Shown: in pieces, positions 8,664-57,246 of the stretch | How the letters are laid out: each line of letters starts with the position of its first letter | How positions within the stretch are numbered: the stretch's first letter is position 1 | Assembly (NCBI GenBank): GCA_012728375.1 | Contig: JAAYFF010000042.1 | Coordinates: forward strand, 1 to 57,972 | Direction: 5' to 3' | Origin: Bacillota bacterium | Lineage (GTDB): Bacteria > Bacillota > Dethiobacteria > DTU022 > UBA8154 | DNA length: 57,972 nucleotides | Position numbers and translations under genes: made by a program | The notes under the pieces: generated by a model | The model's database searches: none | Seen by the model: the letters and a program-made list of their open reading frames with translations, nothing else | What the model was told of the DNA's origin: nothing

Positions 8664-10075
<1,412 letters not shown>

Positions 10076-15838: not shown

Positions 15839-15975
15839 AAGGACAATAAAAGGACAAAAAAATGTATGCTTTTAACTGAAATATTCGGAAAATAATAGTC
15901 TGAAAAGAAGGAATTTATATTTTTAAGTAGAAGAATAAATAAATAAAATATTAATATATATTAAATAATTCCTCG

Positions 15976-16066
15976 AAAGGGCAAACTTCGCGAAAGCGAA
16001 GGACGCAAAGCTACGGGTCTAAAACTCCCGAAATTAGGAGCATGACAGCCGGGTTACCGAAGGGGC
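15976..16066 (+). promoter_or_regulatory. cyclic-di-GMP riboswitch, class I (GEMM-I)
   Basis: The conserved GEMM-I core is read directly: GGGCAAAC (about 15979-15986); a perfect hairpin CTTCGC-GAAA-GCGAAG with the GNRA tetraloop (15986-16001); GGACGCAAAGCTACGGGTCTAAAA; a variable arm (CTCC..GGAG); then CATGACAGCCGGGTTACCGAAGG. The order matches the aptamer structure of the Vibrio Vc2 RNA. The region before it (15839-15975) is very AT-rich, without a gene or a convincing promoter. The closely related cGAMP-selective variant cannot be excluded by eye. Confidence 0.95.
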
Positions 16067-16086
16067 AACAAAAGTTATGGGTCATT

Positions 16087-16122
16087 GTCTGTTCCTTAAT
16101 GGTAAACGGGGCAGACTTTTTT
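16087..16122 (+). terminator. riboswitch-controlled terminator
   Basis: GTCTGTTCC (16087-16095) pairs with GGGGCAGAC (16108-16116) across a 12-nt loop and runs into six T. The riboswitch 3' end carries GGGGCA (16062-16067), the same six bases as the terminator's 3' arm. It can pair with the 5' arm instead, giving a plausible antiterminator. Confidence 0.8.
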
Positions 16123-16157
16123 ATTTATATAAGATAAGCGAGGGGAAAGTCTTAAGT

Positions 16158-16589
16158 ATGCTGAGAAGGCCTCTGTCATTTCTAACTTTCCCGGGAATCT
16201 TGGTGCATCAAGCGACGTATCACCTTTTTTCACGAAAAACAAATACATTTCTTGTCGAAATAGGCATTTTCATAATAAACACCATAGTAGGAGCAATTAC
16301 AGCTCTGCCTGGCGCCCTGGTTGTTATCAAGTTTGGCGCGGGCACCATGTTTGACTATATTTTAATCTGGCTTGGAGTTTCTATCGCAATGCATTCCTTT
16401 CCGAGCCTCGAAAAAGCACGTAAAATTTGGATTATGGTCAGAAGCAAAAAAACGCCCTGTCGGCTAAAATTTATTGCAACTCCAATAGTTATATTTATGT
16501 ACCTGTTTGCGAAGGGTTCAGTTGTCTGGCTCGATCTTCTTTACGGTATTGGAATAGCGTTATTGCTGCCGGGTTTACTAATTTTCTAA
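16158..16589 (+). CDS. small multi-pass membrane protein, possibly an inactive M50-like homologue
   Basis: This 143-aa protein has about four hydrophobic segments. The pattern LTFPGILVH...(F)IINTIVGAITALPGALVVIKFG...DYILIWLGVSIAMHSFPS resembles, from memory, small clostridial membrane metalloprotease-like proteins whose first segment carries HExxH. Here the site reads HQATYH (residues 17-22): the Glu is Gln and the second His position is Tyr, and the usual segment after it seems missing. If the relation is right, the protein is probably catalytically dead. The start at ATG 16158 has GAGGGG upstream at rather long spacing. Its expression should respond to c-di-GMP through the riboswitch and terminator directly upstream. 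Confidence 0.6.
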   Translation: MLRRPLSFLTFPGILVHQATYHLFSRKTNTFLVEIGIFIINTIVGAITALPGALVVIKFGAGTMFDYILIWLGVSIAMHSFPSLEKARKIWIMVRSKKTPCRLKFIATPIVIFMYLFAKGSVVWLDLLYGIGIALLLPGLLIF

Positions 16590-41600: not shown

Positions 41601-42793
41601 GTGGCGTCATTAAGATTCAACAAAGCTTTTACCGGAATATTACTGGACTTTGTTGAATCATTTCCCAAGTAACCGGACCAGTTGCTTCCCCATGCCCAAA
41701 TACTACCGTTTGCATCCAAAGCAAGGCTGTGTTCATCTCCGGCAGCAATGCAAATAATCTCCTGCAGTTCTTTTTGATTAACTGGAACGGGACGGTCCCG
41801 GGTGGTCCCATCACCAAGCTGCCCGTAGCTATTACCCCCCCAGGCCCAGACAGTACCATCGCTTGTAACCGCCAGGGTATGCACTTCCCCGGCAGCAATA
41901 GAAAGGGCATTTTCCACATGTCTCACTTTTACTGGCTGCAAACGGTTAAACCGGGTTCCGTCACCAAGTTGCCCGGAGGTGTTATTGCCCCACGCCCAAA
42001 CGGTACCGTCCTCCTTCAAAACTACCATATGCTCAGTTCCCATGGAAACAGCCGTTACTGTAGTGAGATCCTCTACTCGCGCCGTCAGCAGCTGCGTGCC
42101 GGTACGGCGTCCATTACCTAGATGTCCGTGCCGATTGGCCCCCCAGGTCCGTATCGTACCATCTGTCAATAAAGCGGCGGAACTAAAACCAGCTGCGCTA
42201 ATGGCCTGTGTTTTGCCGAGGTAAGCAACATGACGTATTGATTCTCTGCTTTCTTTGGTCCCGTCACCTAGTTGTCCATAGCTGTTATCTCCCCATGCCC
42301 GCACAGTACCATCGCTGCGCAGGGCAAGATTATGGCGCGCTCCAGCGGCAATGGAGATGACTTTAGTTAGATGTTTTACCTGTACAGGTTTGCATTTAGT
42401 AAGCGTAGATACATCATCTTGATCCTTTTTTATCCCAAGTTGATTATAGCTATTATCACCCCAGGCCCAGACAGTTCCGTCAAATCTAAGCGCAATGGTA
42501 TGGTAATCACCAGCCGCAATAGCGATCACCTCATCAAGTTCTCTTACCCGCACCGGTTTAGCACTGTTTTGAATTGTTCCATTGCCGAGCTGCCCAAAGC
42601 TGTTATTGCCCCAGGCCCAGACAGTTCCGTCAGCCCGCAGTACTACAGAATGTTCCTTGCCGGCGGCGACAGCAACTTTACTTATATCCTCTCTGCCAGT
42701 AGAAGCAATACCTGAATTATAGAGCATTAAAAAAAACAAAAGAGAAAAAACCAGAAACAAAAAAAGTTTTCTTAAAGTTCGCTTGGCTCCCAT
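41597..42793 (-). CDS. secreted RCC1-repeat beta-propeller protein
   Basis: After a signal peptide (basic start, hydrophobic run at about residues 9-30) come seven RCC1-type repeats. Each contains a version of AAGxxH(T/S)xALxxDGTVWAWG(D/N)NxxGQLG. That number makes a full seven-bladed propeller in 398 aa. Eukaryotic RCC1 acts on Ran; secreted bacterial repeats of this kind are usually uncharacterised, and binding surfaces are likely. It lies on the opposite strand inside the pilus locus with AGGAGG before its ATG. A role in attachment is speculation. Confidence 0.92.
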   Translation of the reverse strand: MGAKRTLRKLFLFLVFSLLFFLMLYNSGIASTGREDISKVAVAAGKEHSVVLRADGTVWAWGNNSFGQLGNGTIQNSAKPVRVRELDEVIAIAAGDYHTIALRFDGTVWAWGDNSYNQLGIKKDQDDVSTLTKCKPVQVKHLTKVISIAAGARHNLALRSDGTVRAWGDNSYGQLGDGTKESRESIRHVAYLGKTQAISAAGFSSAALLTDGTIRTWGANRHGHLGNGRRTGTQLLTARVEDLTTVTAVSMGTEHMVVLKEDGTVWAWGNNTSGQLGDGTRFNRLQPVKVRHVENALSIAAGEVHTLAVTSDGTVWAWGGNSYGQLGDGTTRDRPVPVNQKELQEIICIAAGDEHSLALDANGSIWAWGSNWSGYLGNDSTKSSNIPVKALLNLNDAT

Positions 42794-42964: not shown

Positions 42965-44911
42965 TGATTCCACTGCATAAACTCATTTTTTACTACCGCT
43001 GTGGTCCATATCAAGGCTATCAGACTAACAATATATACCAATTATTACCCATTTATCCATCAGCAGGCTGGCAAGGCGAGGCACAAAGGGCTGATTTTGC
43101 CCCCTTTTCCCTGTAATCATCTTTTTTTCTCAAAAAGTACACACTACTCCTGTTGGTTGTTGAGCAGCAACGCTTTTACGAACCTTGCCCTGGAAGAACC
43201 TGACAAGTTGGCGTATATTGTGGCCGATTATTTTCAGGCCTGTTACTACCCGAACCTTGGGGTAAGTACGTACATCTAACTTATCTGCACCTTGCGCACG
43301 CTTGACCGAGGAGATGGTCCCCTCGACGGCAGCACGCTTGCTGGTCGCTGCGATGCGCAAAGGTTTATCGAAGATGCGCTTTCTTGCATGAGCTGCAATG
43401 ACCGAGTTCTTCTTGACACGCAGGACCGCGCTTTTCCGCTGAAACTTGACGGGACAGCTGTCCTTCCTTACACAGTGCTGGCAGTGTTCCAGGGAGAAAT
43501 GGGCACTAACAATTCCACTTTTTTCTTTGTAATTACTTTTTATAGGGGGGTGTTGCTCCGGACAGGCACATACTTTAAAATCTGCATCTATATCAAACTC
43601 GGCTAAAGAAATCCTCTCGGGATTAGGGGCTTTGCCGGTCATGTCTGTGTAGTGAACCTTTACTTCCTGTTTTTGGCTTTCCTGTTCCACTTCTTCACCG
43701 TAGTATCCGCCGTCTACGTAAAGCTCTTCAATATCTGTATTCTCTTTCAGTTCGGGAAGGCGTTTGATGAGCAAATCTGTATCAGCAACACTGCTGTTTT
43801 CGATGGCATAGTCCGTAATGAACTGAACAGGATTTTCTTCGGCACAGGTCTCACTGACGTTGAGGCTGTAACCTTTATTTACCTTGCCTCCTTTATTCCG
43901 GTAGGTGGCATCGGGGTCGTAGGCCGATTGCAGGGAAGTGGCGGCAATATCTTTGTTTGCTTTTGCTTGCCAGGTCTTTGTAACTTGGTCAAAGTCAGCT
44001 TGTTCACTGAGAAAGCGTCTTAACAAAGCAACTTCGGGACTGTCTGTAAGCTTATGATTTTCCAAGAGGTCAAGCAGCTGGGAGCTCAAGTTGATCATCT
44101 CCTGCAAGCGTCCCGGAACCTGGCTGCTGCGGGTGCGGAAGAGGAGATTTGTTTTAAATTCAGGGTTGAGGCCCTCTTTCAACTGTTCCGGCAGCATTTG
44201 CTCCGGGCAAATTCTTAAAGCTTGCTGTAGTACATCAAAAGATAGGGAGAGGCGCCCGGCCAGCTTGATATTTGACATGACAACGGTGGAATCCATGCGC
44301 TGTTGCTTGGTACTGATGCCGGCCGCTTCGCAAAAATATTGGGCCAGCCTTTCGAACTGGCCAAAGACCAGATCTTCTTCTGCCGGATGTTCTATGGTAT
44401 ACTCGTAGACTCTGCGGCGAAAGTTGTAAAAAGTCCGGTCAGCTAGGTAGCGTTCCCCCAAGTTGCGCATCCCCAAGGCATACATGATTTGGAAGTTTAA
44501 GTTATACTGATCCAGAAGTATTTCATCGGTATAGTCGAAGGTATGCTTGATCAGTTCAAGGGATAAAAGGATATTGACCGGAAAGTTGGTACGACCCATG
44601 TCTGGGCTGTAAAGTACTGCAAAGGGCTGTTCATCTATTTTGCAAAAAATATGCTCATAAAAGATAGGTGCCCATGATTTATCAAGTCTTTCCTTGATTT
44701 TAGGGTTCAAATCTGTGTAGCTGCTATATAGTTGCTGTTGGTTATGGGCGTCATTTTGTTTGAACATCGATCTTGCGCCTCCAATCCGCAGGAATTATTG
44801 CCTTTACTCTTATTTGCTTTGATTTACTATATTAAGTTCTTCATTCGAGTGGTAAATTCATTCTTTTTTGGAGGAATGATCCAAATTTATTTACTTTATG
44901 CAGTGGAATCA
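42965..44911 (-). mobile_element. IS1182-like insertion sequence
   Basis: The left end (42965-42981) and right end (44895-44911) are perfect 17-bp inverted repeats, TGATTCCACTGCATAAA read inward. Flanking AAAA on both sides is a candidate 4-bp target duplication, but the site is A-rich. One transposase gene fills it. It sits between the RCC1 gene and the PilP-like gene, splitting the pilus locus. Its length is 1947 bp. Confidence 0.9.
43130..44767 (-). CDS. IS1182 family transposase
   Basis: A 545-aa DDE transposase with the DUF772-type N-terminal domain (QPFAVLYSPDMGRTNFPVNILLSLELIK). The catalytic acids are probably in MDSTVVMSN, YVDGGYYGEE and RAAVEGTISSVKRAQG. A cysteine-rich insert (CACPEQ..CQHCVRKDSCPV) lies before the last motif, as usual in this family. 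The frame is intact with GGAGGC before the ATG, so the element may still move. Confidence 0.93.
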   Translation of the reverse strand: MFKQNDAHNQQQLYSSYTDLNPKIKERLDKSWAPIFYEHIFCKIDEQPFAVLYSPDMGRTNFPVNILLSLELIKHTFDYTDEILLDQYNLNFQIMYALGMRNLGERYLADRTFYNFRRRVYEYTIEHPAEEDLVFGQFERLAQYFCEAAGISTKQQRMDSTVVMSNIKLAGRLSLSFDVLQQALRICPEQMLPEQLKEGLNPEFKTNLLFRTRSSQVPGRLQEMINLSSQLLDLLENHKLTDSPEVALLRRFLSEQADFDQVTKTWQAKANKDIAATSLQSAYDPDATYRNKGGKVNKGYSLNVSETCAEENPVQFITDYAIENSSVADTDLLIKRLPELKENTDIEELYVDGGYYGEEVEQESQKQEVKVHYTDMTGKAPNPERISLAEFDIDADFKVCACPEQHPPIKSNYKEKSGIVSAHFSLEHCQHCVRKDSCPVKFQRKSAVLRVKKNSVIAAHARKRIFDKPLRIAATSKRAAVEGTISSVKRAQGADKLDVRTYPKVRVVTGLKIIGHNIRQLVRFFQGKVRKSVAAQQPTGVVCTF

Positions 44912-44993
44912 AAAATATAATTTAATTTGAAGGAAATAGGAGGCAATTGTAGAAATACATCAAAAGGACATTTTCATTCACCGGAGGTTTTAT

Positions 44994-45470
44994 GTGGATC
45001 TCAAAGAAAAATTAAAAAATGCCATTCATCTTATTAAGCATAAGAAAAAACTTGTGTTTCTTTTTTGTGCCTTGATAATTTTACTTTCAGCAGCCTTGTT
45101 TTCTTATTTTGCTAGAAAGGACGATACTCCGTCAGTTACCCCGCCGGAAAAAAACGTCATATCTTCGGCGGAGGGCAGTTTAGATAGTGCCGCTACTGAA
45201 GGTGAAACGGTCGAAGTTCTTCCGCAAGAGGAGCGGCTTGGTGAAGAAAACCTGCTGCCCCCCGATCCTTTTGCAGCCCCTCCTCAACTTGTGGGCGTTC
45301 TATTAGACGGGGAAGGGGATAACTATGCCATAATCGAAGTTGGAGGAAAAGCTTATGTTAAAACCGAAGGTGAAACAGTAGCTGATCTCTGGAAGGTGGA
45401 ATCAATTTTCAAGGATAAAGTAAAAATAGTCTCGGAAACCGACGAATTAGTTCTTTTATTAAGCAGGTGA
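44994..45470 (+). CDS. PilP/GspC-like pilus assembly protein
   Basis: A bitopic protein of 158 aa: basic N-terminus, one membrane helix (about residues 20-39), a flexible acidic linker, then a compact domain starting DPFAAPPQLVGVLLDGEGDN and ending VKIVSETDELVLLL. That domain looks like the homology region of GspC/PilP, which in didermia contacts the secretin N0 domain. The partner here would be the next gene's N0 module. GTG 44994 follows GGAGG by 6 nt. A TATAAT sits just outside the IS end at 44916, but no -35 matches. The similarity call is by pattern, not by search. Confidence 0.7.
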   Translation: MDLKEKLKNAIHLIKHKKKLVFLFCALIILLSAALFSYFARKDDTPSVTPPEKNVISSAEGSLDSAATEGETVEVLPQEERLGEENLLPPDPFAAPPQLVGVLLDGEGDNYAIIEVGGKAYVKTEGETVADLWKVESIFKDKVKIVSETDELVLLLSR

Positions 45471-45476: not shown

Positions 45477-46940
45477 CTGTCATCCAGTTCGGTTAACCCG
45501 TTTAAAATAACTCCTTCTTTTTATGTTTTATCCCTGGTACTGGCGATACTATTTCTTTTCCCGGCTGCACCAAAATGTTTCCCTGCCGGCGGCCAGGACA
45601 TTAGCGGGCAATTATCCGCGGATTACGCTGAACAATCAGGCGAAACATCTTCCTTTATTTTGGATGTGCGCCAAGCAGACCTGCGAGATGTTCTCTCCGC
45701 GCTGGCCATCAAAATGGAGAGAACGATTATTCTGCTCGATACCCCCGTCAGAGTGACATTTTTCGTTGAAAATGTCACACCTCTGACTGCCATGAAACTA
45801 CTCTTGCAAAATGAGGGCTTTGATTATCTGGAAAATGGCGATTGTATCTTGGTCGGCCGTCCGGAAAAATTAAAAGAAAATTTTTTTAACCTAATGGCCT
45901 TGACCAGGTTTAATTTAAAATATATCAGCGCTCCTGCTCTTACCGCCTTAATCGGCGAGCTGGAGATTCCTCTGAAAATTCTGTCTCCGGAGACGAACCC
46001 CAGGACCATTTGGGTACAGGGAACGCCGCGGGAACTGGGAGCGGTGCGGGGAATTATTGCAGCCTTAGATCGCCCGGAGAATGCCGATCCGAAAACATCC
46101 ATTCCCCTGGAACGCTTAGATCTTCTGTATTTAAATGCAGAAATAATTAAACCCTTGATCGAAGAACTCGCTCTTTCTGCTCAAGTTATTACCCTGCCGG
46201 TTAACCCGCAAACCATTTGGGTCCAAGGGACGCCGGCTGCAGTAGAACGCTTGAAGGAACTGATAGCTATCCTGGACCGGCCGGAAAATGCAGGGCTGGA
46301 AACAAAGCTGGATATGGCAAGTTTCAGACTGAATTTTATGGATGCGGAAAAAATGACACTTCTCCTTAAGGAAGCAGGCATCGCCGAAAAATATATCCTT
46401 TATGACGAAACAGCACACCTTCTCTGGGTTTACGGCCCGTCTTCCAATCTGGAAATTGCCCGGGAACTTATTGCTGCGGTCGATCTCCCGGAAAACGCTG
46501 AACAACTGCCCCATATTTTTATTTATCAATTCAATAATATTAGCGCTCTGGATGCTGCTGAGCGGTTAAATGAAATGGCCGTATTTAAGGGAGTTAAAAC
46601 GTTGACCTTTAACTATCCGGAAATTAACGGCGAATTGCTGGTTATCTGCCCCCATCATCTAACGGAACAAGTTTATAAAGCCCTTGACTTGCTCGACGGG
46701 GCACGCCGGCGCATCCGTATGCCTGTAGATTCCGCCGGCAAAAGGAGTGCTCTGGCAGCCAGGCGGGAGCTTCTCGCGGAGCTTACCGGTATTTCGAGCA
46801 GCAGAATGCATATCTCCGACAACCTTTCAGGAGATAATGAAAATCCTTACTATGTGCTCTGGGTGGAGGAAACACCTGATAAGGTGCAGTTGGTACGCGA
46901 CATGGTAGAAATTATCAATGCACCCCGTTCTGGTCGATAA
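45477..46940 (+). CDS. secretin-like protein with N0/N1 modules but no pore domain (CTG start)
   Basis: The frame encodes an N0/STN-like module (about residues 62-131), then four to five repeats of a secretin N1-type fold. Two carry the identical core TIWVQGTP and all end near a LDRPENA-like strand. The protein ends at about 487 aa without a beta-barrel secretin domain. The first ATG/GTG/TTG (TTG 45660) would miss the export signal. Reading back to CTG 45477 adds 61 residues with a typical signal peptide, and AGGTGA lies exactly 6 nt before that CTG. I therefore place the start there. In a monoderm cell it could form a ring around the pilus in the wall zone. Confidence 0.75.
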   Translation: MSSSSVNPFKITPSFYVLSLVLAILFLFPAAPKCFPAGGQDISGQLSADYAEQSGETSSFILDVRQADLRDVLSALAIKMERTIILLDTPVRVTFFVENVTPLTAMKLLLQNEGFDYLENGDCILVGRPEKLKENFFNLMALTRFNLKYISAPALTALIGELEIPLKILSPETNPRTIWVQGTPRELGAVRGIIAALDRPENADPKTSIPLERLDLLYLNAEIIKPLIEELALSAQVITLPVNPQTIWVQGTPAAVERLKELIAILDRPENAGLETKLDMASFRLNFMDAEKMTLLLKEAGIAEKYILYDETAHLLWVYGPSSNLEIARELIAAVDLPENAEQLPHIFIYQFNNISALDAAERLNEMAVFKGVKTLTFNYPEINGELLVICPHHLTEQVYKALDLLDGARRRIRMPVDSAGKRSALAARRELLAELTGISSSRMHISDNLSGDNENPYYVLWVEETPDKVQLVRDMVEIINAPRSGR

Positions 46941-46972: not shown

Positions 46973-48121
46973 ATGTCGTCAAACAAGCTACCGGGCGATA
47001 AACAACAAGATATTTATCCCGTTTCTACAGATCAGCTGCTCCGCATAACAGTCGAGCAGGGCGGTTCGGATTTGCATCTTACCGCGGGGATGCCCCCGCA
47101 GGCCCGTATTAACGGGGAACTTACAAAACTTGATTTTCCTGTTCTTTACCCCGAGGTAATAGAAGCACTTCTCTATTCCATTCTTGATCAGAAACAATTG
47201 CAACGTCTCCAGGAACAATGGGAACTTGATTTTTCTTATTCAATTTCCGGAGTTGCCCGTTTCCGCGGCAACATTATGTATCAACGCAACAGTTTGTCAG
47301 CTGTTTTTCGCGTTGTTCCCTTTGAGATACCTGACTTTGACACATTGGGCTTGCCCCCTGCCGTCAGATCTATCTGCGAGTTGACCCGGGGCCTGGTCTT
47401 GGTAACAGGGCCCACAGGAAGCGGCAAATCAACCACCTTGGCTGCACTAATCAACATCATTAACCGGGAGCGTTGCGAAAATATTGTTACCATTGAAGAC
47501 CCTATTGAATTTTTACATAAACACATTAAATCCACAATTAGACAGCGGGAAGTGGGCACTGACACCCACTCCTTTGCAGACGCGCTGCGCCACGTTTTAC
47601 GCCAGGACCCGGATGTAATCCTTATCGGTGAAATGCGCGACCTGGAAAGCATCAGTATCGCTTTGACAGCTGCAGAAACAGGCCACCTGGTCTTTTCAAC
47701 CCTTCATACCCAAACCGCTCCCTTGACGGTAAGCCGCATCGTCGATGTTTTTCAGGACCACCGCCGTGCGCAGGTGCGTCAACAGCTGGCCAATTCCCTG
47801 CGGGCAGTCGTTTGCCAGCAGCTGGTACCAACTACCGACGGAAAGGGGAGGGTAGCTGCCGTCGAATATATGGTGGATTCCCCGGCAGTCCGCAACATGA
47901 TCCGTGAAGGAAAAGATCATCAGCTCTACAGCGCCATGCAAACCGGGCAGGAACTGGGGATGCAAACTCTCGATAAAGCTTTATTTGAACTCTATAAAAA
48001 CAATAAAATTACCAGGGAGGTTGCCCTGGAATATTGTGTAGACCGGTCTGAAATGGAACGGCTGCTGAGCTTCGGAGGAGGGCCCGGTCTAAAGCCCCGC
48101 AGCGGCTCCTGGCGCGGCTAA
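46973..48121 (+). CDS. pilT: twitching motility ATPase PilT
   Basis: The retraction motor of type IV pili. Walker A GPTGSGKSTTLAAL, Asp box TIEDPIEFLHKH, Walker B RQDPDVILIGEMRD and the AIRNLIRE-type retraction motif (AVRNMIREGKDHQ) are present. The 382-aa length and absence of MshEN or the zinc quartet separate it from PilB. It means the pili are probably retractable, so gliding or DNA-uptake functions are possible. Confidence 0.95.
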   Translation: MSSNKLPGDKQQDIYPVSTDQLLRITVEQGGSDLHLTAGMPPQARINGELTKLDFPVLYPEVIEALLYSILDQKQLQRLQEQWELDFSYSISGVARFRGNIMYQRNSLSAVFRVVPFEIPDFDTLGLPPAVRSICELTRGLVLVTGPTGSGKSTTLAALINIINRERCENIVTIEDPIEFLHKHIKSTIRQREVGTDTHSFADALRHVLRQDPDVILIGEMRDLESISIALTAAETGHLVFSTLHTQTAPLTVSRIVDVFQDHRRAQVRQQLANSLRAVVCQQLVPTTDGKGRVAAVEYMVDSPAVRNMIREGKDHQLYSAMQTGQELGMQTLDKALFELYKNNKITREVALEYCVDRSEMERLLSFGGGPGLKPRSGSWRG

Positions 48122-48193: not shown

Positions 48194-49399
48194 TTGGCCC
48201 TTTTTGCTTATGAAGTAATTACAAAAACCGGCGAACTTTTAAAAGGACAATTAGAAGCAGCGGATGAATATGCAGTTGCGGACAACCTGCGCAAAATCGG
48301 CCATACTGTCATTGATATCGTCGAAATTAAGCCTTCTTTCTTCCAGAATGCTTTCAAAGCAAAAGTCAAGGCCTCGGTAGGGGATCTGAGCCTTTTATGC
48401 CGCCAACTGGCAGCGATGCTGGATGCCGGCGTACCTTTGACCCGCTCTCTTTTTACGCTCAGCATTCAGACGACTAACAAAGGGCTGGGAAGGATTTTAG
48501 AAGAGATTGCCCGCAATATAGAAGGCGGAATGAGCTTTACCGATGCCATCAGCGCTTATCCCCATATCTTTCCTTCCATCTTCAGCGGCATGGTAAAAGC
48601 AGGGGAGGTAGGGGGGACTCTTGAAGAAGCACTGGGGCGCTTGGCTGATCAGCTGCAAAAAGATAAATTTTTACGGGACAGTTTACGCTCCGCCACTTTT
48701 TATCCTGCTGCCATCGGCATATTCTCTGTTCTCCTTTTGCTAGGAATGCTCTTTTTCCTCGTTCCGCTTTTTATGGGTTTTTTCCCGCCGGGGACCCCCT
48801 TGCCGCTCCCTACCAAAATAGTCGTAGCGCTGTCGAATTCCCTGCGCAGTTTATGGTATCTCTGGTTTCTGACGGTTTTCCTCTTGGCAATACTGCTTCG
48901 CACCTATCTGCGCAGCCCTTTGGGCAAACAGCAATGGGACCGTTTAAAATTTCGTCTTCCCCTTTTCGGGCCGTTGTTCCACCGGGCAGTAATCGCCCGT
49001 TTTTCCCGGACCCTATCTACCCTTTTCAGCGGAGGAATTCCTGTGGTACAAGCCCTGGAAGCCGCAGGAGCAGCTACGGGAAATAGCCTGGTTGAAGAAG
49101 CGGCAAAGGAAGCTGCCGAAAAAGTCCAGGAAGGAAAAAGTATCGCCGGCCCCCTGGGAGAAAGCCCCGTCTTTCCGCCAATGGTGACCCAGATGGTTTC
49201 TATCGGCGAAGAAAGCGGTTCCCTGCCTGACCTTCTCAACCGCATTGCCGATTTTTTTGAAGAGGAGGTAGCTGTCATGACCAAGGGTCTAACCGGCATG
49301 CTTGAACCGATCATGCTTATCGTAGTGGGGTTATTGGTAGGAAGTATGCTTCTCGCACTTTATATGCCAATTTTTTCTGTAATAACCCAAGGGATGTGA
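48194..49399 (+). CDS. pilC: pilus inner-membrane platform protein PilC
   Basis: The polytopic base of the pilus, family GspF. Two repeats of the T2SSF domain are seen (LCRQLAAMLDAGVPLTRSL and ARFSRTLSTLFSGGIPVVQAL), each with the usual membrane helix pair. 401 aa. It begins at TTG 48194 after GCGGTGAG. Its stop overlaps the start of the sigma-factor gene (GTGATG), so they are translationally coupled. Confidence 0.95.
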   Translation: MALFAYEVITKTGELLKGQLEAADEYAVADNLRKIGHTVIDIVEIKPSFFQNAFKAKVKASVGDLSLLCRQLAAMLDAGVPLTRSLFTLSIQTTNKGLGRILEEIARNIEGGMSFTDAISAYPHIFPSIFSGMVKAGEVGGTLEEALGRLADQLQKDKFLRDSLRSATFYPAAIGIFSVLLLLGMLFFLVPLFMGFFPPGTPLPLPTKIVVALSNSLRSLWYLWFLTVFLLAILLRTYLRSPLGKQQWDRLKFRLPLFGPLFHRAVIARFSRTLSTLFSGGIPVVQALEAAGAATGNSLVEEAAKEAAEKVQEGKSIAGPLGESPVFPPMVTQMVSIGEESGSLPDLLNRIADFFEEEVAVMTKGLTGMLEPIMLIVVGLLVGSMLLALYMPIFSVITQGM

Positions 49400-50133
49400 T
49401 GACTACCTTGGCGGTCCATTTTAAAGAAAACACACGGGGTAATTTCCCCGATCTGGAAAAGGCCGTGCAGCTCTATCTTCAAGATAAAAATAAAGATAAG
49501 CTAAATGGTGTAATCGAGGCCGGAAGCGGTCTGGTACACCATTTTGCCCGCCTTTACTCCGGGGAGGGGAAAGACGAGGACCTGCTGCAATCCGGTTACG
49601 AAGGCCTGCTCAAGGCTGTGCAGCGCTTCGATCCTTCCCGCGGCATCCGTTTTGCAACCTATGCTTCCTCTTATATCGCCGGCGAAATCAGGCATGAGCT
49701 GCGCCGGAAAAAATCTTTTGACCGTCCCAAGTGGATAGCAGAACTGCAAAAAAGCATTTTGGCTGCCGCTGATAAACTCCTGCAGGAAAAAGGCCGCCCT
49801 CCCCTTTTGCAAGAGATCGCCGCGGCAGTCAATATTCGTGAAGAAGGAGTCCGGGAGGCCCTGAAGGCCGGGCGTGTCCCCTTCGATGAATTGGACATCG
49901 CACAGATACGGAGCATGCATTATGTGAGCTTTCAGTTGCCTATTGAAGACCGGATCCTGCTTCGCCAGGCCTTGCAGCACTTGAGCGTTCTGCAGCGGCG
50001 GGTAATCTGTCTTCTCTTTTACCATGGCTTGACGCAAAGGGAGGTAGCTCAAGAACTAGGCACCAATCAGCGTCAGGTATCCCGCCTCCTGCATAAAGGC
50101 CTCGATTCCCTGGCACGCTTTATTTCCAGGTAA
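49396..50133 (+). CDS. sigma-70 family RNA polymerase sigma factor inside the pilus operon
   Basis: A 245-aa sigma factor with region 2 (DEDLLQSGYEGLLKAVQRFDPSRGIRFATYASSYIAGEIRH), region 3 (RPPLLQEIAAAVNI) and region 4 ending in the helix-turn-helix GLTQREVAQELGTNQRQVSRLL. It groups by eye with the SigF/SigG/FliA type without region 1. It starts at GTG 49396 or ATG 49399, overlapping pilC, and pilM follows after 24 nt. Such a factor inside the assembly operon could direct pilin or pilus-gene transcription. No partner anti-sigma gene is seen next to it. Confidence 0.88.
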   Translation: MMTTLAVHFKENTRGNFPDLEKAVQLYLQDKNKDKLNGVIEAGSGLVHHFARLYSGEGKDEDLLQSGYEGLLKAVQRFDPSRGIRFATYASSYIAGEIRHELRRKKSFDRPKWIAELQKSILAAADKLLQEKGRPPLLQEIAAAVNIREEGVREALKAGRVPFDELDIAQIRSMHYVSFQLPIEDRILLRQALQHLSVLQRRVICLLFYHGLTQREVAQELGTNQRQVSRLLHKGLDSLARFISR

Positions 50134-50157: not shown

Positions 50158-51174
50158 ATGGGTATTTTTTTTCCGAACCGCCTGGCCGGGGTGGAAATTG
50201 ATTACGGTGAGCTCCGCGTCGTTGAGCTGAAGGGCAGGCGAAGTGCTCCTGAATTGCTGAATTGGGGACGTGCTCCTCTCCCTGCAGAAGCGGTAAAAGA
50301 CGGCTTCATCCTGCAGCCTCAGGTAGTGGGAGAAGCTCTGGAGCAATTCTGGAAAGAAAAAAAAATAAAAAGTCGCAATGTTATTTTTGGTGTCTCCAAT
50401 CAGGAAGTTATTGTTCGCTTTGCCAACTTTCCCCCGGTGCCTGAAGAAAAACTGGAAAAGATGATTCGCTACCAAGCCCGGGACTTCCTCCCCATATCCC
50501 TGGAACATTCTATTATGGATTTTGCTGTAACCGGAACTTCCGGCGAGGGCAAGGATAAGTTGCTGGAAGTGCTCCTTGTGGTAGCACCCAAAGAGATGAT
50601 CAACAATTTTCTACAAGCAGGCAACCGGGCAGGGTTAACAGTCCGGGATATCCATGTAATTTCTCTTTCCTTCATTCAACTGCTGCCTTCTTTACGGCTT
50701 GAAGGTGCCACCGCGCTCCTCTCCCTTAACAATGGGTCGAGCAATTTATTGATCACTATGGGGGAAATGCCGCGCCTGGCGAGACACCTTTCTTCCGGTT
50801 TACAGGAGGTGGCGGAACATTTGCCCTGTTCCCTGGAAGAAGTCGTGGAACAGGCCGGAGCTGCTCCCGGAGAACCCTTCCCCGAAGCTTTTATTGATTG
50901 GGCTGAAACATTGCTGGGAGATATACGCTCTTCAATTCAGTATTATCAGGCTCAGTCGGGGGCAGCTGCTGTGGAGCAGTTTATCTTGTTGGGACGGGGA
51001 GCCCGCATCAACGGTTTTCCCGGTCAGCTTGAAGAAATATTCGGCCTTCCCGTTTCTTTTATCGACCCCCTTAAACTGATCAAGAAAGCACCCAACAATA
51101 TCGCGGGCTTTGTTCACGAAAGCGCTGATTATGGCGTCAGTTTCGCCCTGGCCCGCGGCGGATTGGGGGAATAA
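50158..51174 (+). CDS. pilM: type IV pilus assembly protein PilM
   Basis: An actin-like ATPase that sits under the membrane and binds the PilN N-terminus. The N-terminal fold GVEIDYGELRVVEL, NVIFGVSNQEVIVRFANFPP and the C-terminal ILLGRGARINGFPGQLEE match the family. 338 aa. It leads the pilMNO block; its stop is 3 nt from the probable CTG start of pilN. Confidence 0.93.
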   Translation: MGIFFPNRLAGVEIDYGELRVVELKGRRSAPELLNWGRAPLPAEAVKDGFILQPQVVGEALEQFWKEKKIKSRNVIFGVSNQEVIVRFANFPPVPEEKLEKMIRYQARDFLPISLEHSIMDFAVTGTSGEGKDKLLEVLLVVAPKEMINNFLQAGNRAGLTVRDIHVISLSFIQLLPSLRLEGATALLSLNNGSSNLLITMGEMPRLARHLSSGLQEVAEHLPCSLEEVVEQAGAAPGEPFPEAFIDWAETLLGDIRSSIQYYQAQSGAAAVEQFILLGRGARINGFPGQLEEIFGLPVSFIDPLKLIKKAPNNIAGFVHESADYGVSFALARGGLGE

Positions 51175-51177
51175 AAA

Positions 51178-51759
51178 CTGAAAACGATCAGCCTTTTGCC
51201 TCCGGAGCAAAAACTTGCTCTGCGCACAGCCAGAATAAAAATAACCCTTCTTTTGGCAGGGTCTGTCCTTATGCTGCTTTTTTTTCTACTCAATGTTTTT
51301 ATCGCGTTCGCAGCACAGGATATCAATAATCAAGCACTGATAATTGAACAACAGAGGTCCCTGCTGCAGGAAAAAATTAATTCATTGCAGGAATATGCAA
51401 AGATGCAGGAACGAGTGGAAACAGTAGAAAAAATGCTGGAAGAAAGCATTGGTACAGAACCTGACTGGAACGCATTGCTGACGGCCCTTGCTTTTGCAGT
51501 ATCCCCTGAAGCGCAGCTTATAACACTTTCTGTTTCTTACGAAGGCGATAAGGGCGAACTCTCCCTGCAGGGTATTGCACCCGGCCATTATGCTGTGGCC
51601 TCCGTAATGGAGCGGCTGAATACGCTTCATGAACTGGAGAATGTTCGCTTTAATTTTTCTGCAGAAACGGAAAGCCAGGAACGCCTTGGGGTCCAGTTTG
51701 AAATAACAGCCGCTGTTTTGCCTGGAGAAGCCGGCGGCAGCAGGAAGGAGATACCTTAA
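51178..51759 (+). CDS. pilN: type IV pilus assembly protein PilN (CTG start)
   Basis: PilN has a short cytoplasmic peptide that binds PilM, one membrane helix and a periplasmic-side ferredoxin-like domain. The PilM-binding peptide has the consensus I-N-L-L-P-P-E. Here the residues KTISLLPPEQ appear only if translation begins at CTG 51178; the nearest common start, TTG 51196, would delete them. GGGGGA lies 7 nt before the CTG, and an in-frame stop (the pilM TAA at 51172) excludes anything earlier. About 193 aa with a helix near 24-45. Confidence 0.85.
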   Translation: MKTISLLPPEQKLALRTARIKITLLLAGSVLMLLFFLLNVFIAFAAQDINNQALIIEQQRSLLQEKINSLQEYAKMQERVETVEKMLEESIGTEPDWNALLTALAFAVSPEAQLITLSVSYEGDKGELSLQGIAPGHYAVASVMERLNTLHELENVRFNFSAETESQERLGVQFEITAAVLPGEAGGSRKEIP

Positions 51760-51763: not shown

Positions 51764-52291
51764 GTGAAGCAGAAGTTTACTATGCGCCAAAATTTTCCCT
51801 TCTTTATATTGATAATCATGCTGCTTCTTTTCCTGCTTCTTTCTTTGTACCGCCTGAATTACTTAAATACTTTGCGGGAAGACCTTCAGCTTCAAGAACA
51901 AGCCCTGGCGGAGGAACAGGAATACCTGCTTCTCCTGCGAAAATTGGAGAAAGAGGGCCCACACTTTACAGAGCGGCTGGAGCTTTTTGAAAATCTTATA
52001 CCTGAGGAAACTACAAGGTATCAGTTAATGCAGCATCTGCAAAAGATTGCAACTTTAAACGGAATTCGTTTGCTTCAGGTGTCTTTTAATGATGAGAAAC
52101 CAACTGACGCCTACGTGGAGATACCTCTGGAACTATCACTTGAGGGATCATTCCAGGCATTGCTTAAGTTGCTGCGCACAATGCGGGAAGGCGAAAGGGC
52201 ATTTCGCGTCGACAATATTGAGATCTATACAATGCAAGAAAATACCATGCTCAGCATTGTCATCAAAGTCAGCATGTTTTTCAGCCGCTAG
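51764..52291 (+). CDS. pilO: type IV pilus assembly protein PilO
   Basis: The partner of PilN in the alignment complex. One membrane helix (about residues 12-30), then a coiled coil (YLNTLREDLQLQEQALAEEQEYLLLLRKL) and a C-terminal ferredoxin-like domain with the LPIELSLEG(S)-type strand (EIPLELSLEGSFQALLKLL). 175 aa. It starts at GTG 51764, 4 nt after pilN; AGGAAGGAG is a little far upstream, and ATG 51782 is the alternative. Confidence 0.85.
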   Translation: MKQKFTMRQNFPFFILIIMLLLFLLLSLYRLNYLNTLREDLQLQEQALAEEQEYLLLLRKLEKEGPHFTERLELFENLIPEETTRYQLMQHLQKIATLNGIRLLQVSFNDEKPTDAYVEIPLELSLEGSFQALLKLLRTMREGERAFRVDNIEIYTMQENTMLSIVIKVSMFFSR

Positions 52292-52335
52292 GCTTGGTTG
52301 GCGTTTCAAGCACATAATTACGGGTGGTGTCTCTT

Positions 52336-54018
52336 TTGAAAGGATTTGCTCAGCAACAGCTCGGTGATCTTCTTGTAGAATTAAAATATATTTCAGCGGA
52401 GCAACTTCAAGAAGCCCTGCGCTATCAAAAGGATAAAAGCAGGGAGGGCTCCCGCATTCTCTTAGGTCAGGCTCTTTTTGAGCTTGGCTTTTGTACCGAA
52501 GAAATTATTACCAGGGCACTGGCCCACAAGGCCGGCATTCCTTTTATGAGCCTGCAACAGCATCAAATAAACAGCGCCGCGGCCAATCTCATTGAACCGG
52601 AATTGGCACTGCGCTACAATGCCCTTCCTATTGGTTTTGAAAATAATAAACTTCTTGTTGCCCTCAAACATCCATCTGATATCATCGCGGTCGATGACCT
52701 GCGGATCATTACCGGCTATGAAATCAAGCCTGTTATCGTCCCTGACAGTGAATTAACAGCAGCAATAGAACAGTTTGTCCGGTCTACTATGGAGGTAGAA
52801 CAGGAGGAAGAAGAGATTCCGGAAGAACTGACGGTAACGGAAGGGGCAGAAATAAGGCCTGCCGTACAGCTTGCCAATCAAATTCTGCACCAGGCGGTGC
52901 GTTCCTCAGCCAGCGATGTCCATATTGAGCCCCTGGAAAAGGGCATGCGCGTGCGGATGCGCATTGACGGCGTGCTTCATGAAGTAATGCAGCAGCACCG
53001 CCGCATGCATCCGCCCCTTATAACCCGCCTAAAAGTAATGGCCGGTATGGATATCGCGGAGCGGCGTCTTCCCCAGGACGGGCGCATGACCATGAAAATA
53101 GATAACCGTACAGTAGATATTCGTGCTGCCACATTGCCTTCAGCGTATGGCGAAAAGATTTCTTTGCGCATCCTTGACCGGGATGCCCGCCTTCTCACCC
53201 TGGAGGAGATAGGCTTTCCTCAGGATCAGCTGGCAAAGTACAGGCAGATTATGCACCTTCCCTATGGGTTCATCCTGGTTACAGGCCCCACAGGCAGCGG
53301 AAAGAGCACTACCCTATACGCAACTCTGGCAGTTCTTAATTCCATCGACAAGCACATTATTACCCTGGAAGACCCTGTCGAACGGCGGATGGACGGCATT
53401 AACCAGATCCAGATCAACTTGAAGGCAGGGCTCACCTTTGCTTCCGGCCTGCGCGCCATTGTACGCAACGATCCGGACGTGATCATGGTGGGAGAAATCA
53501 GGGACCATGAATCAGCCCGAATAGCTGTTGAATCAGCCCTTACCGGCCATCTGGTTCTTGCCACGCTGCACACCAGCGATGCGGCAGGTGCCATCACGCG
53601 GCTGAGCGACATGGGCGTTGAACCGTACCTAACCGCTTCGTCAGTAGTCGGCGTCGTAGCCCAGCGCCTGGTACGCCTCCTTTGCCCTTATTGTCGTGAA
53701 AAAGAAACAATACCTATTGACGATCTGCTGGCAAACGTTCCGGACTTTCCTTTGGAAAAAGGGGAAAAGACAGTAACCCTCTACCGACCGAAAGGATGTA
53801 TCCGCTGCAACAACACCGGGTACAAGGGACGCACCGGCGTTTATGAGCTGCTCATTTTCAGCGAAAATATCCGCCGCCTGACCCTGGAGCGGCGTTCTGC
53901 CCAGGAGATTCAAGAGGCCGCGGTACAAGAAGGAATGGTTACCCTGCGCCGTGACGGTCTTAACAAGGTCAAACGGGGTCTTACCTCCCTGGAAGAAGTG
54001 ATTCGCGTGATCGTCTAA
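52336..54018 (+). CDS. pilB: type IV pilus extension ATPase PilB
   Basis: Full-length GspE-family motor. The N-terminal MshEN domain (LGDLLVELKYISAEQLQEAL) is followed by the ATPase core: Walker A GPTGSGKSTTLYAT, LEDPVERR, Walker B RNDPDVIMVGEIRD, HTSDAAGAITRLSDMGVEPY and the zinc quartet (CPYC..CIRC). About 560 aa. MshEN domains bind c-di-GMP in several bacteria, so this protein could be a direct c-di-GMP target; that is family knowledge. It starts at TTG 52336, with GGGTGGTG 6 nt before it. Confidence 0.93.
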   Translation: MKGFAQQQLGDLLVELKYISAEQLQEALRYQKDKSREGSRILLGQALFELGFCTEEIITRALAHKAGIPFMSLQQHQINSAAANLIEPELALRYNALPIGFENNKLLVALKHPSDIIAVDDLRIITGYEIKPVIVPDSELTAAIEQFVRSTMEVEQEEEEIPEELTVTEGAEIRPAVQLANQILHQAVRSSASDVHIEPLEKGMRVRMRIDGVLHEVMQQHRRMHPPLITRLKVMAGMDIAERRLPQDGRMTMKIDNRTVDIRAATLPSAYGEKISLRILDRDARLLTLEEIGFPQDQLAKYRQIMHLPYGFILVTGPTGSGKSTTLYATLAVLNSIDKHIITLEDPVERRMDGINQIQINLKAGLTFASGLRAIVRNDPDVIMVGEIRDHESARIAVESALTGHLVLATLHTSDAAGAITRLSDMGVEPYLTASSVVGVVAQRLVRLLCPYCREKETIPIDDLLANVPDFPLEKGEKTVTLYRPKGCIRCNNTGYKGRTGVYELLIFSENIRRLTLERRSAQEIQEAAVQEGMVTLRRDGLNKVKRGLTSLEEVIRVIV

Positions 54019-54095
54019 TTTAAAAGACTTGTTAATGTAAGAATAGATACCGTATTTTTGTAAAATGGGTATATTCAAGAATGGGGGTAAAACTT

Positions 54096-54563
54096 TTGAA
54101 AAAAGCAATAACCCGCCCACTGCTTCTAATTTTGCTTCTAATCCTGTTCAGCATAGCAGCCGGTTGTCAGGATGAACAGCTCAGCACGGATGATGTACCC
54201 CTTGATGCACTGCAAAAGGAAGGGGTTCTTCAGGAGATAAAAACTATCTTAGCTGAATTCCGGGAGGCTCTGCAAGATCTTCTCGGCACCACACCCCGGG
54301 TCGTCCATGACCAAAACCTGAAAACCATCGATCAGGCCGTTGATCTCTTTCGACTGGTAGAGGGAAAGGATCCCAAAGGAATCGGAGAAGCAGGTGAGCC
54401 CGGCACCCTGGTCGGTGAAGGGTACCTGGAAAGCAATCCGCAGATTCCGGTCGGATTGAAGGAGGAAGAAGGAGAATGGTCGGAGTATAAGCTAAAGGGC
54501 AAACCCCTGCGTGCCTGGCCTGTGGGCGACTGGGGAGGCTACCGCGACGGAGATACCCCCTAA
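54096..54563 (+). CDS. lipoprotein of the pilus locus, unknown
   Basis: A 155-aa lipoprotein: signal peptide MKKAITRPLLLILLLILFS, lipobox IAAGC (Cys at residue 24), then a short acidic linker, a helical segment (ILAEFREALQDLL) and a Pro/Gly-rich C-terminal part. TTG 54096 has GGGGG 8 nt upstream; ATG 54081 would add a five-residue extension. It lies between pilB and the pilins, where pilot or adaptor lipoproteins are expected. I recognise no domain. The PilF-type TPR pilotin pattern is absent. Confidence 0.7.
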   Translation: MKKAITRPLLLILLLILFSIAAGCQDEQLSTDDVPLDALQKEGVLQEIKTILAEFREALQDLLGTTPRVVHDQNLKTIDQAVDLFRLVEGKDPKGIGEAGEPGTLVGEGYLESNPQIPVGLKEEEGEWSEYKLKGKPLRAWPVGDWGGYRDGDTP

Positions 54564-54630
54564 AATATATTAAAAAAAAATTTCCAATCAGTGTCTAAAA
54601 AAGAAAATCCCCGGTATAACAATAATAGAA

Positions 54631-54658
54631 GGAAATACCTTTTTAGTAAGGTAAATCC
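54631..54658 (+). promoter_or_regulatory. leader hairpin before the first pilin
   Basis: GGAAATACCTT (54631-54641) and AAGGTAAATCC (54648-54658) form nine pairs with a 2-nt internal loop and a 6-nt apical loop. It lies 16 nt before the GGAGG site. Upstream, TGTCTA-N17-TATAAC (54590-54618) is only a weak promoter match. Confidence 0.5.
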
Positions 54659-54693
54659 TCCAATACCAAAGATCTGCAAGGAGGTCAAAAATT

Positions 54694-55047
54694 ATGTTTA
54701 AAGTTCTTATGCGCAAAGCGCGCAAGAACCAAAAAGGTTTCACTCTGGTTGAACTGATGGTCGTGGTGGTGATTATTGGGATCCTGACGGCGATTGCGGT
54801 ACCGGTGTATAACAATGTGACGGAAAATGCAGCAAATGCTGCTCATGACGCAAACATTAAAATTATCCAAGGTGCTGTTGAAATGTATCGAGCAGCAACT
54901 AATGCTCTTCCGACTAAAGTTGATGATCTCGTACCTAGTTATATAGCTGAATGGCCAACTGTTCCAGCAGGTGCTTCTGGCGACAGAACAGAAGCAGATT
55001 ACCTTAATGCTGGTGGTATTCTTGAAACTGCGCTCACTAAAGAATAA
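54694..55047 (+). CDS. type IV pilin, probable major subunit
   Basis: A prepilin with a 15-residue positively charged leader (MFKVLMRKARKNQKG) cut before F in FTLVELMVVVVIIGILTA. The mature protein (102 aa) has Glu5, the hydrophobic N-terminal helix and a small C-terminal domain (ending in TALTKE) without cysteines. PilD should process it. GGAGGTC precedes the ATG. It is the best candidate for the main fibre subunit, given the leader hairpin and first position. Confidence 0.93.
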   Translation: MFKVLMRKARKNQKGFTLVELMVVVVIIGILTAIAVPVYNNVTENAANAAHDANIKIIQGAVEMYRAATNALPTKVDDLVPSYIAEWPTVPAGASGDRTEADYLNAGGILETALTKE

Positions 55048-55048
55048 A

Positions 55049-55227
55049 TATGGCTGATTTAACTTGAAACGTGGTTGGGGAGAAGCATGGGGACGGTTCT
55101 TTTGCTGCAAAATATGGTCTTGTTACTTTCTAATCGCTTTCCCAACTCAATAGAGGGGGACCAGGGATCTGATATTTTTGCACAAAAGCGTAGCTTAAAG
55201 TATGGCTGATTTAACTTAAAACGTGGT
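55049..55227 (+). repeat. 27-bp direct repeat flanking a 125-bp insert
   Basis: A 27-nt sequence starting TATGGCTGATTTAACTT occurs at 55049-55075 and 55201-55227 (26 of 27 bases match). The insert between has imperfect inverted ends with TTTTGCTGCAAAATAT-like sequence (near 55099 and 55180) and a GGGGACGGTTC core, resembling a small mobile or REP-type element. Confidence 0.8.
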
Positions 55228-55244
55228 GACAGGAGGGGGATACT

Positions 55245-55625
55245 ATGAAGTCGACACAGGAAAGTGCTTCTTTTTCCTATCGTCATAATAACTCCCTCCT
55301 GAACAGCTCGGGCTTCACTCTGGCTGAACTGATGGTCGTGGTGGTCATTATCGCTATTTTGGTGGCAATGGCGATCCCCATTTACGAAGAAGTAAAGGCA
55401 AATGCCGCATACAAGGCAAATGAAGCCAATATGGCCATCATACACAGCGCCGTACAGATGTACATCGCCGACCATGGCGTGCCGGAGGGCGAACCCGCCA
55501 GCGGTTGGCAGAATGCCTTGATGCCATACCTGCAGGAATGGCCTGACCCGCCTCCCGGCTATACGGGAACATACCAGGTAAGCGGTAATATTCAAAAATA
55601 TAAGGTTGAATTGAAAGATTTTTGA
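55245..55625 (+). CDS. second type IV pilin-like protein
   Basis: A prepilin with an unusually long leader (23 residues, few basic residues) cut at NSSG before FTLAELMVVVVIIAILVAMAIP. Glu5 is present. The mature protein (103 aa) shares the helix and the general layout of the first pilin but diverges after it, with a PYLQEWPDPPPGYTGT motif near the C-terminus. GGAGGGGG lies before ATG 55245. It may be an alternative major or a minor pilin. The IS4-like element begins eight nt after its stop. Confidence 0.92.
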   Translation: MKSTQESASFSYRHNNSLLNSSGFTLAELMVVVVIIAILVAMAIPIYEEVKANAAYKANEANMAIIHSAVQMYIADHGVPEGEPASGWQNALMPYLQEWPDPPPGYTGTYQVSGNIQKYKVELKDF

Positions 55626-55633: not shown

Positions 55634-57246
55634 CAGGAGTTATGCAGTTGATGTAAATATATGACAGCACACACTCCAAAAAATATTTTCAAATTAGATC
55701 CATATATTTCCAAAAACACTTGACATTTCAGAAAAGCGCCCATAATCGAGTAGGATGGTATTTTTTACCATTACTACTGACGATTTGGGTGATACAATTG
55801 AAACAGCTGGGTAAACCTATTTTTCGAAGTAAGGATCACGGCCCAGGAGCCGGCATTCCAGTGCTCAAAACAATTTGGGATTTTTTTGACATGGCGCTTT
55901 TGTTTTCCCAAACCGGAATCAGCAAACATTCCGGACTACCTGCATGGTTAATGGCTTTCGCCTATATCTGCGGTTTGATCAATAATGTAAAATCGGCCAA
56001 TAAAAATGCAAGTTTTTCTGCAGATGCTCCATTTTTAAGGCATTTGTTGGGGCAAAAGGTTTCCCAGAGTGCTCTCAGCCGGTTTCTTGCTAAACCATTT
56101 GCGTGGCTCCAGTTCTCCCTTGGCAGAGTTGCCAGATTGCAGGAGAAGGAAGAAAGCCGACTAATCGAGGGTGATGTGATTGCCCTGGATGATACCAAAA
56201 TTGAGCACCGACATGGGAAAAAAATCCCCTTTTTGTGTTGGCTTTTTGATAGTTCGGATAAACGCCACCTTTGGTGTATGAACCTCGTATCAACTTTTGC
56301 TGTTTTGAATAACGGACTGGAATATCCTTTGTTATGGCGTTTTTGGGTGAAAACAGAAAATATCAAAGAGAAACAAACAAAGCTTGAACTGGCTAAAAAA
56401 ATGCTTACGGCGTTTCGTTCGCTTAATGATGCAAGGGTTTGGGTGGCTATGGACCGTTGGTTCTTGTGTAAAAAGTTCCTGCGGTGGCTTATGGATAATG
56501 ATTTTGATTGGGTTACTAAAGCCAAACGCAATACGGTCCTGTTCCGGAAAACATATGACCACAGGCTTGGAAAGAAAATATTTGTTAAGCTAAATCCCCA
56601 AACGCTGCTGCGGGAAGCATACCCAAAGCTGCGGAAAGACGGCTCGGCAATGAGTATTGCTGATATTTACATCAAGATCCCTTATGAAACGGTTACCAAG
56701 AAGGAAAAGCCTATCACACGTCAAGAAATGGTTCCCGTTGCCGCTATTGCTGCAACCTACACAAAGCAGGCATCAGACATCTTTTTGCCGGAAGCAGAAT
56801 CGCCAGCTACCTTTAAGGATGCATATCTGTTGCTGAGTAACCGTGTTGACAAACCAAAAGATGTAGCTATTGCTTATGCCAAACGATGGCGTATTGAAGT
56901 TTTTTACCGTATGGCTAAGCAGAATCTCGGCTTAACATCTTGCTATGCCCGTTCTGAAACAGCCCATTTCGCACATGTGGAGCTGCTCTTCACCGCAAAT
57001 ACTCTTCTTTGTTATGCCACCTGGCATTGTAAAGAAGAAGGCGTTGAAGAAGCCTTGCCCCCTTGCGAAGTGGTCGGGTACTTTTTCAACGCCGGTTGCC
57101 GGATTTACTGTGGTAAACAGCAAATCCAAGTCTATTTTGACATAACAACCAGGCGTTTTGCAAGCTTAATAAAAAAATTTTGGCCAAAATTTTTGGAACT
57201 AAAGTTATGGAACTGGAATTATTATCCTGGAACTGCATAAGTTCTG
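55634..57246 (+). mobile_element. IS4-like insertion sequence with 7-bp target duplication
   Basis: The ends are inverted repeats, CAGGAGTTATGCAGTT at 55634-55649 and its counterpart at 57231-57246 (14 of 16 match). The direct repeat TACCTTA flanks both (55627-55633 and 57247-57253), two nt after the second pilin's stop. It contains one intact transposase and a TTGACA promoter near 55721. Length is 1613 bp. Confidence 0.93.
55798..57240 (+). CDS. IS4-like DDE transposase
   Basis: A 480-aa transposase with the DDE residues in ALDDTKIEHRHGKK, VAMDRWFLCKKFL and YAKRWRIEVFYRMAKQNLGL. The last resembles the Y-R-E-K signature of IS4-type enzymes. An N-terminal segment (KTIWDFFDMALLFSQTGISKHSGLPAW) is typical of the group. 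TTG 55798 has GGGTGA 5 nt upstream; the frame remains open to 55720. It is intact. Confidence 0.92.
   Translation: MKQLGKPIFRSKDHGPGAGIPVLKTIWDFFDMALLFSQTGISKHSGLPAWLMAFAYICGLINNVKSANKNASFSADAPFLRHLLGQKVSQSALSRFLAKPFAWLQFSLGRVARLQEKEESRLIEGDVIALDDTKIEHRHGKKIPFLCWLFDSSDKRHLWCMNLVSTFAVLNNGLEYPLLWRFWVKTENIKEKQTKLELAKKMLTAFRSLNDARVWVAMDRWFLCKKFLRWLMDNDFDWVTKAKRNTVLFRKTYDHRLGKKIFVKLNPQTLLREAYPKLRKDGSAMSIADIYIKIPYETVTKKEKPITRQEMVPVAAIAATYTKQASDIFLPEAESPATFKDAYLLLSNRVDKPKDVAIAYAKRWRIEVFYRMAKQNLGLTSCYARSETAHFAHVELLFTANTLLCYATWHCKEEGVEEALPPCEVVGYFFNAGCRIYCGKQQIQVYFDITTRRFASLIKKFWPKFLELKLWNWNYYPGTA

Follow-up and report, generated by a model that had tools for sequence, protein, structure and literature searches.

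The type IV pilus operon of a Bacillota bacterium of the class Dethiobacteria contains a sigma factor gene, which raises the question of which sigma factor this is and which promoters it serves. The window, i.e., the whole stretch of 57,972 nucleotides that was analysed (contig JAAYFF010000042.1), carries the gene run pilT, pilC, sigma, pilM, pilN, pilO and pilB. The best reading of the sigma gene is that it encodes a factor dedicated to the type IV pilin (probability of about 0.85), and its predicted regulon in the genome of the window is the major pilin. The features concerned are the following:

44994..45470, + strand: small conserved pil protein at the operon start, in a pilP-like position, kept in pil loci (no match in the Pfam search)
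45660..46940, + strand: Secretin_N-domain protein without secretin channel domain (three Secretin_N stretches)
46973..48121, + strand: pilT, retraction ATPase (TIGR01420, 484.8 bits)
48194..49399, + strand: pilC, platform protein (two T2SSF domains, 2.4e-59)
49396..50133, + strand: sigma factor of the pilus operon (Pfam regions 2, 3 and 4; own clade, 100/100; D62 and Q65 kept)
50158..51174, + strand: pilM (PilM_2, 2.7e-24)
51196..51759, + strand: pilN (PilN, 6.5e-6)
51764..52291, + strand: pilO (PilO, 1.9e-11)
52324..54018, + strand: pilB, extension ATPase with MshEN domain (T2SSE, 1.4e-135; MshEN, 6.6e-19)
54592..54620, + strand: predicted promoter of the major pilin, TGTCTAA-N14-GGTATAAC (sole exact match in 2.38 Mb)
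54694..55047, + strand: major pilin (pilin1), predicted target of the sigma (N_methyl, 1.4e-11)
55245..55625, + strand: second pilin (pilin2), without a motif of its own (N_methyl, 5.2e-7)

The sigma gene and its neighbourhood

The initial annotation described a complete sigma-70 factor with regions 2 to 4 between pilC and pilM, and the Pfam matches and gene positions bear this out. Read from the GTG at 49396, the uninterrupted ORF 49396-50133 (+ strand) codes for 245 aa, with matches to Sigma70_r2 (1.5e-13), r3 (2.6e-10) and r4 (1.7e-12) that all exceed the curated cut-offs. Together with a score of 105 bits against TIGR02937 (cut-off 42.9), regions 2, 3 and 4 place the protein in the sigma-70 family, group 3 type. 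The overlap of 4 nt with pilC that had been reported applies if this GTG is used. However, the start is probably the in-frame ATG at 49399 (244 aa), because a Shine-Dalgarno-like AAGGG is better placed for it (about 6-7 nt ahead) than for the GTG (only about 3-4 nt ahead), and the overlap would then be 1 nt (TGATG). Whichever start is used, the arrangement suggests translational coupling between the sigma and pilC. Within region 2, the DLxQxG-type residues D62 and Q65, which we take to have a role in core binding, are kept in 41 and 42, respectively, of the 42 pilus-linked sigmas, and the region 4.2 helix QR-x-V/I-SR is near-invariant among them.

Orthologues were called with profile A1, whose scores are bimodal (at least 200 bits for orthologues, at most 141 for other sigmas), the one exception being a broken copy in G061 that was counted as an orthologue at 192.5 bits. 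They occur in 26 of the 98 genomes of the class, and 18 more were found outside it, in the sampled part of the phylum. Type IV pilus genes are present at all 41 loci with a labelled neighbourhood (window included). The exact order pilC-sigma-pilM, for which a search in other genomes had been proposed, recurs at 24 of the 41 orthologous loci and in many families, and is therefore not a chance arrangement. At the remaining loci, the sigma gene mostly follows pilC or a chimera (see the last section), or lies beside a pilin, pilB or pilT. Two GTDB matches of 25-28% identity (L009 and L010), with no pil genes matched nearby, were left out as orthologues. In the complete genome G093, a diverged sigma next to a pilin was overlooked at first and found via the promoter motif described below. 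This protein of 181 aa (L204 14206-14751) has lost region 3, region 2 being fused straight to region 4, and its gene adjoins both the motif and the pilin.

The surroundings of the operon show several other features. PilQ-like proteins with Secretin_N but without the secretin channel are encoded both in the window (45660-46940) and at L040 7237-8901; the G001 homologue has a LysM domain, which is missing from the window copy, and no ordinary start codon stands ahead of the probable signal peptide of the window copy. At about 44880-44950, ahead of the pil operon, the sequence GAAGGAAATAG-N10-TAGAAATA is common to three f1 genomes and resembles a sigma-H promoter (AGGAWWT-N12-GAAT). The pil region is flanked by two transposase-like genes (43130-44767 and 55720-57240). 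Between pilB2 and the pil operon, the opposite strand encodes a secreted RCC1-repeat protein (41597-42793), and two relatives have beta-helix proteins in its place (L040 5232-6431 and L041 2967-4136).

The predicted promoter motif of the major pilin

A strongly conserved block of the general form TGTCTAA-N14/15-GGTATAAC lies ahead of pilins; it was discovered by reading the sequence upstream of these genes and hence first noticed there. In the window, it ends 73 bp before the start of pilin1. The exact pattern has this one match in the 2.38-Mb genome and none in 100 shuffles of the window. With a weight matrix, the site scores 38.7 against 6.8-9.8 for the best sites in shuffled windows, the site itself being part of the matrix set. 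When up to two mismatches are allowed, the genome contains 7 matches (the exact one included) versus 9 for a reversed control pattern, which corresponds to background. Chance occurrence of the motif is ruled out by the single genome match, the shuffles and the reversed control. Both TGTCTAA and GGTATAAC are near-invariant at the pilins of many families. Among 23 sites with N14 spacing, TGTCT and GGTATAA do not vary, unlike the base preceding TGTCT; this invariance is not independent evidence since the collection was partly selected by the same pattern. A second match, TGTCTAAGCTTATTAAAAGTGTGGTATAA, found in G014, G181 and G206, is identical in distant genomes and so seems to belong to a conserved gene; it was left out of the pilin promoters.

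The pilin promoters had been judged poor matches to sigma-A, and a shared non-sigma-A motif had been envisaged ahead of the pilins, the lipoprotein gene and pilD. Both ideas stand for pilin1: a scan of 53900-55300 for consensus sigma-70 promoters gave none on the + strand, and TGTCTAA departs from the sigma-A -35 element TTGACA. The major pilin thus has the conserved, predicted non-sigma-A promoter that would mark the target of a pilin-dedicated sigma. They do not extend further, since no motif lies upstream of the lipoprotein gene, pilD or pilin2 in the genome of the window, and a regulon including these three genes was rejected.

The motif follows the sigma across genomes. Within the class, it is present in 21 of 26 sigma-bearing versus 12 of 72 other genomes (Fisher p 8e-9), and outside the class in 11/18 versus 43/365 (p 2.5e-6), p values that are optimistic because the genomes are related and their independence is overstated; the reversed control pattern has no association with the sigma (p 0.8). 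Two of the 11 exact matches in sigma-bearing genomes outside the class are not at pilins. If sites with one mismatch and slightly variant pilin sites are included, the motif precedes pilins in about 37 of the 44 sigma-bearing genomes. For three of the seven others (G039, G050 and G054), the contig ends at or just past the sigma gene, and G102, G120, G359 and G289 have no convincing motif. In G181 and G143 (family f54), no major pilin was recognised inside the pil operon, and the single best match in the whole genome (one mismatch) precedes a pilin on a contig other than that of the operon. These two pilins, like the G093 sigma and the riboswitch-linked sites of family f3, are later and independent finds, made once the motif was defined. 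Four genomes (G002, G044, G056 and G086) have a plausible motif and no detected pil sigma; all are fragmented MAGs, three of which (G044, G002 and G086) are nonetheless 96-97% complete. In G002, which belongs to the same genus as the window, the pilin and the motif are kept and pilB and pilC are in broken pieces (L205 4856-6107).

To judge from gene order and sequence conservation, the operon sigma most likely reads the TGTCTAA/GGTATAAC motif, with a feed-forward logic. The sigma gene would share a transcript with pilC, the gene of the inner-membrane platform, to which it is probably also coupled in translation, and its product would direct RNA polymerase to the single pilin1 promoter at 54592-54620. 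The machine operon would thus produce the sigma, which would in turn switch on the major pilin, so that high pilin transcription would be limited to where the assembly machine is being made. Such co-expression is enough to explain the pilC-sigma-pilM arrangement, and no checkpoint of the FliA/FlgM type is needed. The earlier proposal that the sigma is made with the pilus base and transcribes the pilins finds strong support in the conserved gene order, the separate clade and the shared pilin motif, provided that it is limited to the major pilin.

This gene could also encode a general sigma for surface and biofilm functions, with pilins among its targets alongside adhesins and matrix genes under c-di-GMP control. 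The motif indeed stands ahead of a signal-peptidase operon that includes a small secreted protein in G044, an adhesin-like gene with a sortase in G076 and a secreted-protein gene in G086, and in each case a c-di-GMP riboswitch separates it from the gene. However, the genome of the window has the motif at pilin1 only, and no sigma was detected in G044 and G086, which makes this broader role rather unlikely. A distinctly weaker explanation is that the motif is an ordinary promoter of surface genes, used by sigma-A or another housekeeping factor, and that the operon sigma does something else. Partial use by sigma-A is possible because TATAAC is a fair sigma-A -10, and the four genomes with a motif and no detected pil sigma point in the same direction. 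Against this, TGTCTAA is nearly invariant over many families, differs from TTGACA and is preceded by a variable base; the consensus scan did not find an ordinary sigma-A promoter at pilin1, and the motif tracks the sigma whereas its reversed control does not. We consider this housekeeping explanation improbable and retain that of a pilin-dedicated sigma.

Relationship to known sigma factors

The NCBIfam models closest to the operon sigma are of the SigB/F/G types, and all its scores are below the curated cut-offs: 132 bits versus 234.35 for TIGR02980 (SigB/SigF/SigG subfamily), 109.4 versus 321.45 for the sporulation model SigF, 88.3 versus 457 for SigG, 94.9 versus 315 for SigB, 82.5 versus 189.6 for FliA/WhiG and 121.7 versus 261 for PRK07408 (cyanobacterial SigF). 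A maximum likelihood tree was built from 95 sigmas, i.e., 42 pilus-linked ones, 12 paralogues (the chimeras) and 41 others. The window sigma, its 41 relatives and the 12 derived paralogues form one clade (support 100/100), set apart from the sampled SigF, SigG and SigK, and all 41 other sigmas fall outside it. The genome of the window also has separate SigG, SigF-like and SigK genes, the SigK gene being located in the window itself. In f3 genomes such as G039, G052 and G055, only one SigA-like sigma was found besides those of the pil family. A forespore SigF/SigG paralogue linked to the pilus by accident, which the initial annotation had considered and which the type of the nearest models would favour, is extremely improbable, since the scores and the separate clade rule out a sporulation identity, the genome of the window keeps distinct sporulation-type genes, and orthologues occur in genomes without any detected SigF/G-type sigma.

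The initial annotation knew of no established counterpart for type IV pili. This has to be corrected: a pilin-dedicated alternative sigma is already known, since pilA transcription in cyanobacteria depends on SigF (PMC2758279, PMC6495340) and, in streptococci, ComX (sigma-X) acts at a dedicated box to drive the type IV filament operon of the Com pili (PMC10790768). In Synechocystis PCC 6803, the -12 element of the pilA1 core promoter is GGTAA (PMC2758279), and pilA alone among the characterised hormogonium genes of Nostoc punctiforme is stringently sigF dependent (PMC6495340). Cyanobacterial SigF resembles the operon sigma in that it belongs to group 3, has a region 3 and stringently targets the major pilin. 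It differs by its -32 element, TAGGC instead of TGTCTAA, and the SigF of Synechocystis regulates itself and has additional target genes. To our knowledge, cyanobacterial SigF is not encoded within a pilus operon. In the same way, ComX is an alternative sigma driving type IV filament genes from a dedicated promoter element, but it drives a whole competence regulon via the Com box TTnCGAATA under the control of CSP, whereas the present sigma is encoded within the operon and is predicted to act on the pilin alone. FliA (sigma-28) is likewise dedicated to the late filament-subunit genes of a surface appendage, although the operon sigma remains below the FliA/WhiG cut-off, and no FlgM-like anti-sigma was identified in the operon of the window. 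The SigB promoter of Firmicutes is GTTTAA-N14-GGGTAT, a layout that GTCTAA-N14-GGTATAA resembles; SigB belongs to a related family but has a different gene context, and the operon sigma does not reach the cut-off of its model.

Searches of the open-licence literature yielded no description of a sigma within any type IV pilus operon of Gram-positives, which does not prove absence, and a 2011 survey of Gram-positive type IV pili leaves sigma factors unmentioned. As far as the searches reach, the new elements are the location of a sigma inside the pilus operon, the clade of such sigmas spanning the phylum, the sigma-PilO chimera and the TGTCTAA/GGTATAAC promoter.

Riboswitches and a sigma-PilO chimera in family f3

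In family f3, which belongs to the same order as the window, c-di-GMP-I riboswitches are found ahead of pilins, of sigma or chimera genes and, in L044, of the pilP/secretin operon. At the pilins, the motif is located some 50-60 bp before the riboswitch, at the position expected of a promoter (for example, in L045, motif 8377-8404, aptamer 8460-8546 and pilin at 8695). Since riboswitches precede the sigma genes and also separate the motif from the pilin, this organisation suggests an AND gate in f3. Such a layer is not claimed for the organism of the window because its pil region has no c-di-GMP riboswitch. Elsewhere in the window, a c-di-GMP-I-GGC riboswitch (15971-16062) precedes a small membrane-protein ORF (16077-16589), with no motif there. 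The motif also stands before the c-di-GMP riboswitch of a small secreted protein and signal peptidase (L207 1471-3336), the c-di-GMP-II riboswitch of an adhesin-like gene and sortase (L213 6356-8507) and the c-di-GMP riboswitch of a secreted-protein gene (L206 7457-8538).

Twelve f3 genomes encode a paralogue of about 350 aa in which sigma regions 2-3 are fused to a PilO-like domain, nine of the twelve with other pil genes or the pil sigma as neighbours:

L043 2051-3106, L044 1278-2333, L046 1773-2834, L051 13547-14593 and eight more f3 loci: sigma-PilO chimera

These chimeras retain similarity in regions 2-3 and have lost the region 4.2 helix; at the core-binding positions, D62 is replaced in all twelve and Q65 in eleven. 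Regions 2-3 are followed by a coil, then by a domain with a weak Pfam PilO match (best 1.2e-5). In an AlphaFold model (mean pLDDT 61.9, about 80 for the C-terminal domain), one part matches the PilO crystal structures of P. aeruginosa (2rjz, E 8e-6; 5uvr, E 2.6e-4) and the other part matches sigma factors, e.g., S. aureus SigB (8x6g). The chimera is probably cytoplasmic because inspection by eye revealed no hydrophobic transmembrane stretch. We think that it is a regulator rather than a working sigma, and this duplicated fusion may, more speculatively, regulate the f3 sigma. It is conceivable, though doubtful, that the type IV pili of the phylum are made in two stages, as in the FliA system, with a genuine checkpoint on assembly for which the chimera would be the switch in f3. 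The chimera, whose regions 2-3 would mimic the sigma, would retain or free the pilin sigma depending on how the PilMNO platform stands, and the c-di-GMP riboswitches would gate sigma and pilin together.

If the reading of a pilin-dedicated sigma is true, an entire phylum of Gram-positive type would have, for its type IV pili, an equivalent of the flagellar sigma, with its gene in the machine operon and a promoter recognisable from sequence alone. The motif could serve to locate pilin and other surface genes genome-wide, including unlinked ones, as in two genomes here. Furthermore, thanks to the stacked c-di-GMP riboswitches and the sigma-PilO chimera, a possible coupling between pilus assembly and pilin transcription can be tested directly.
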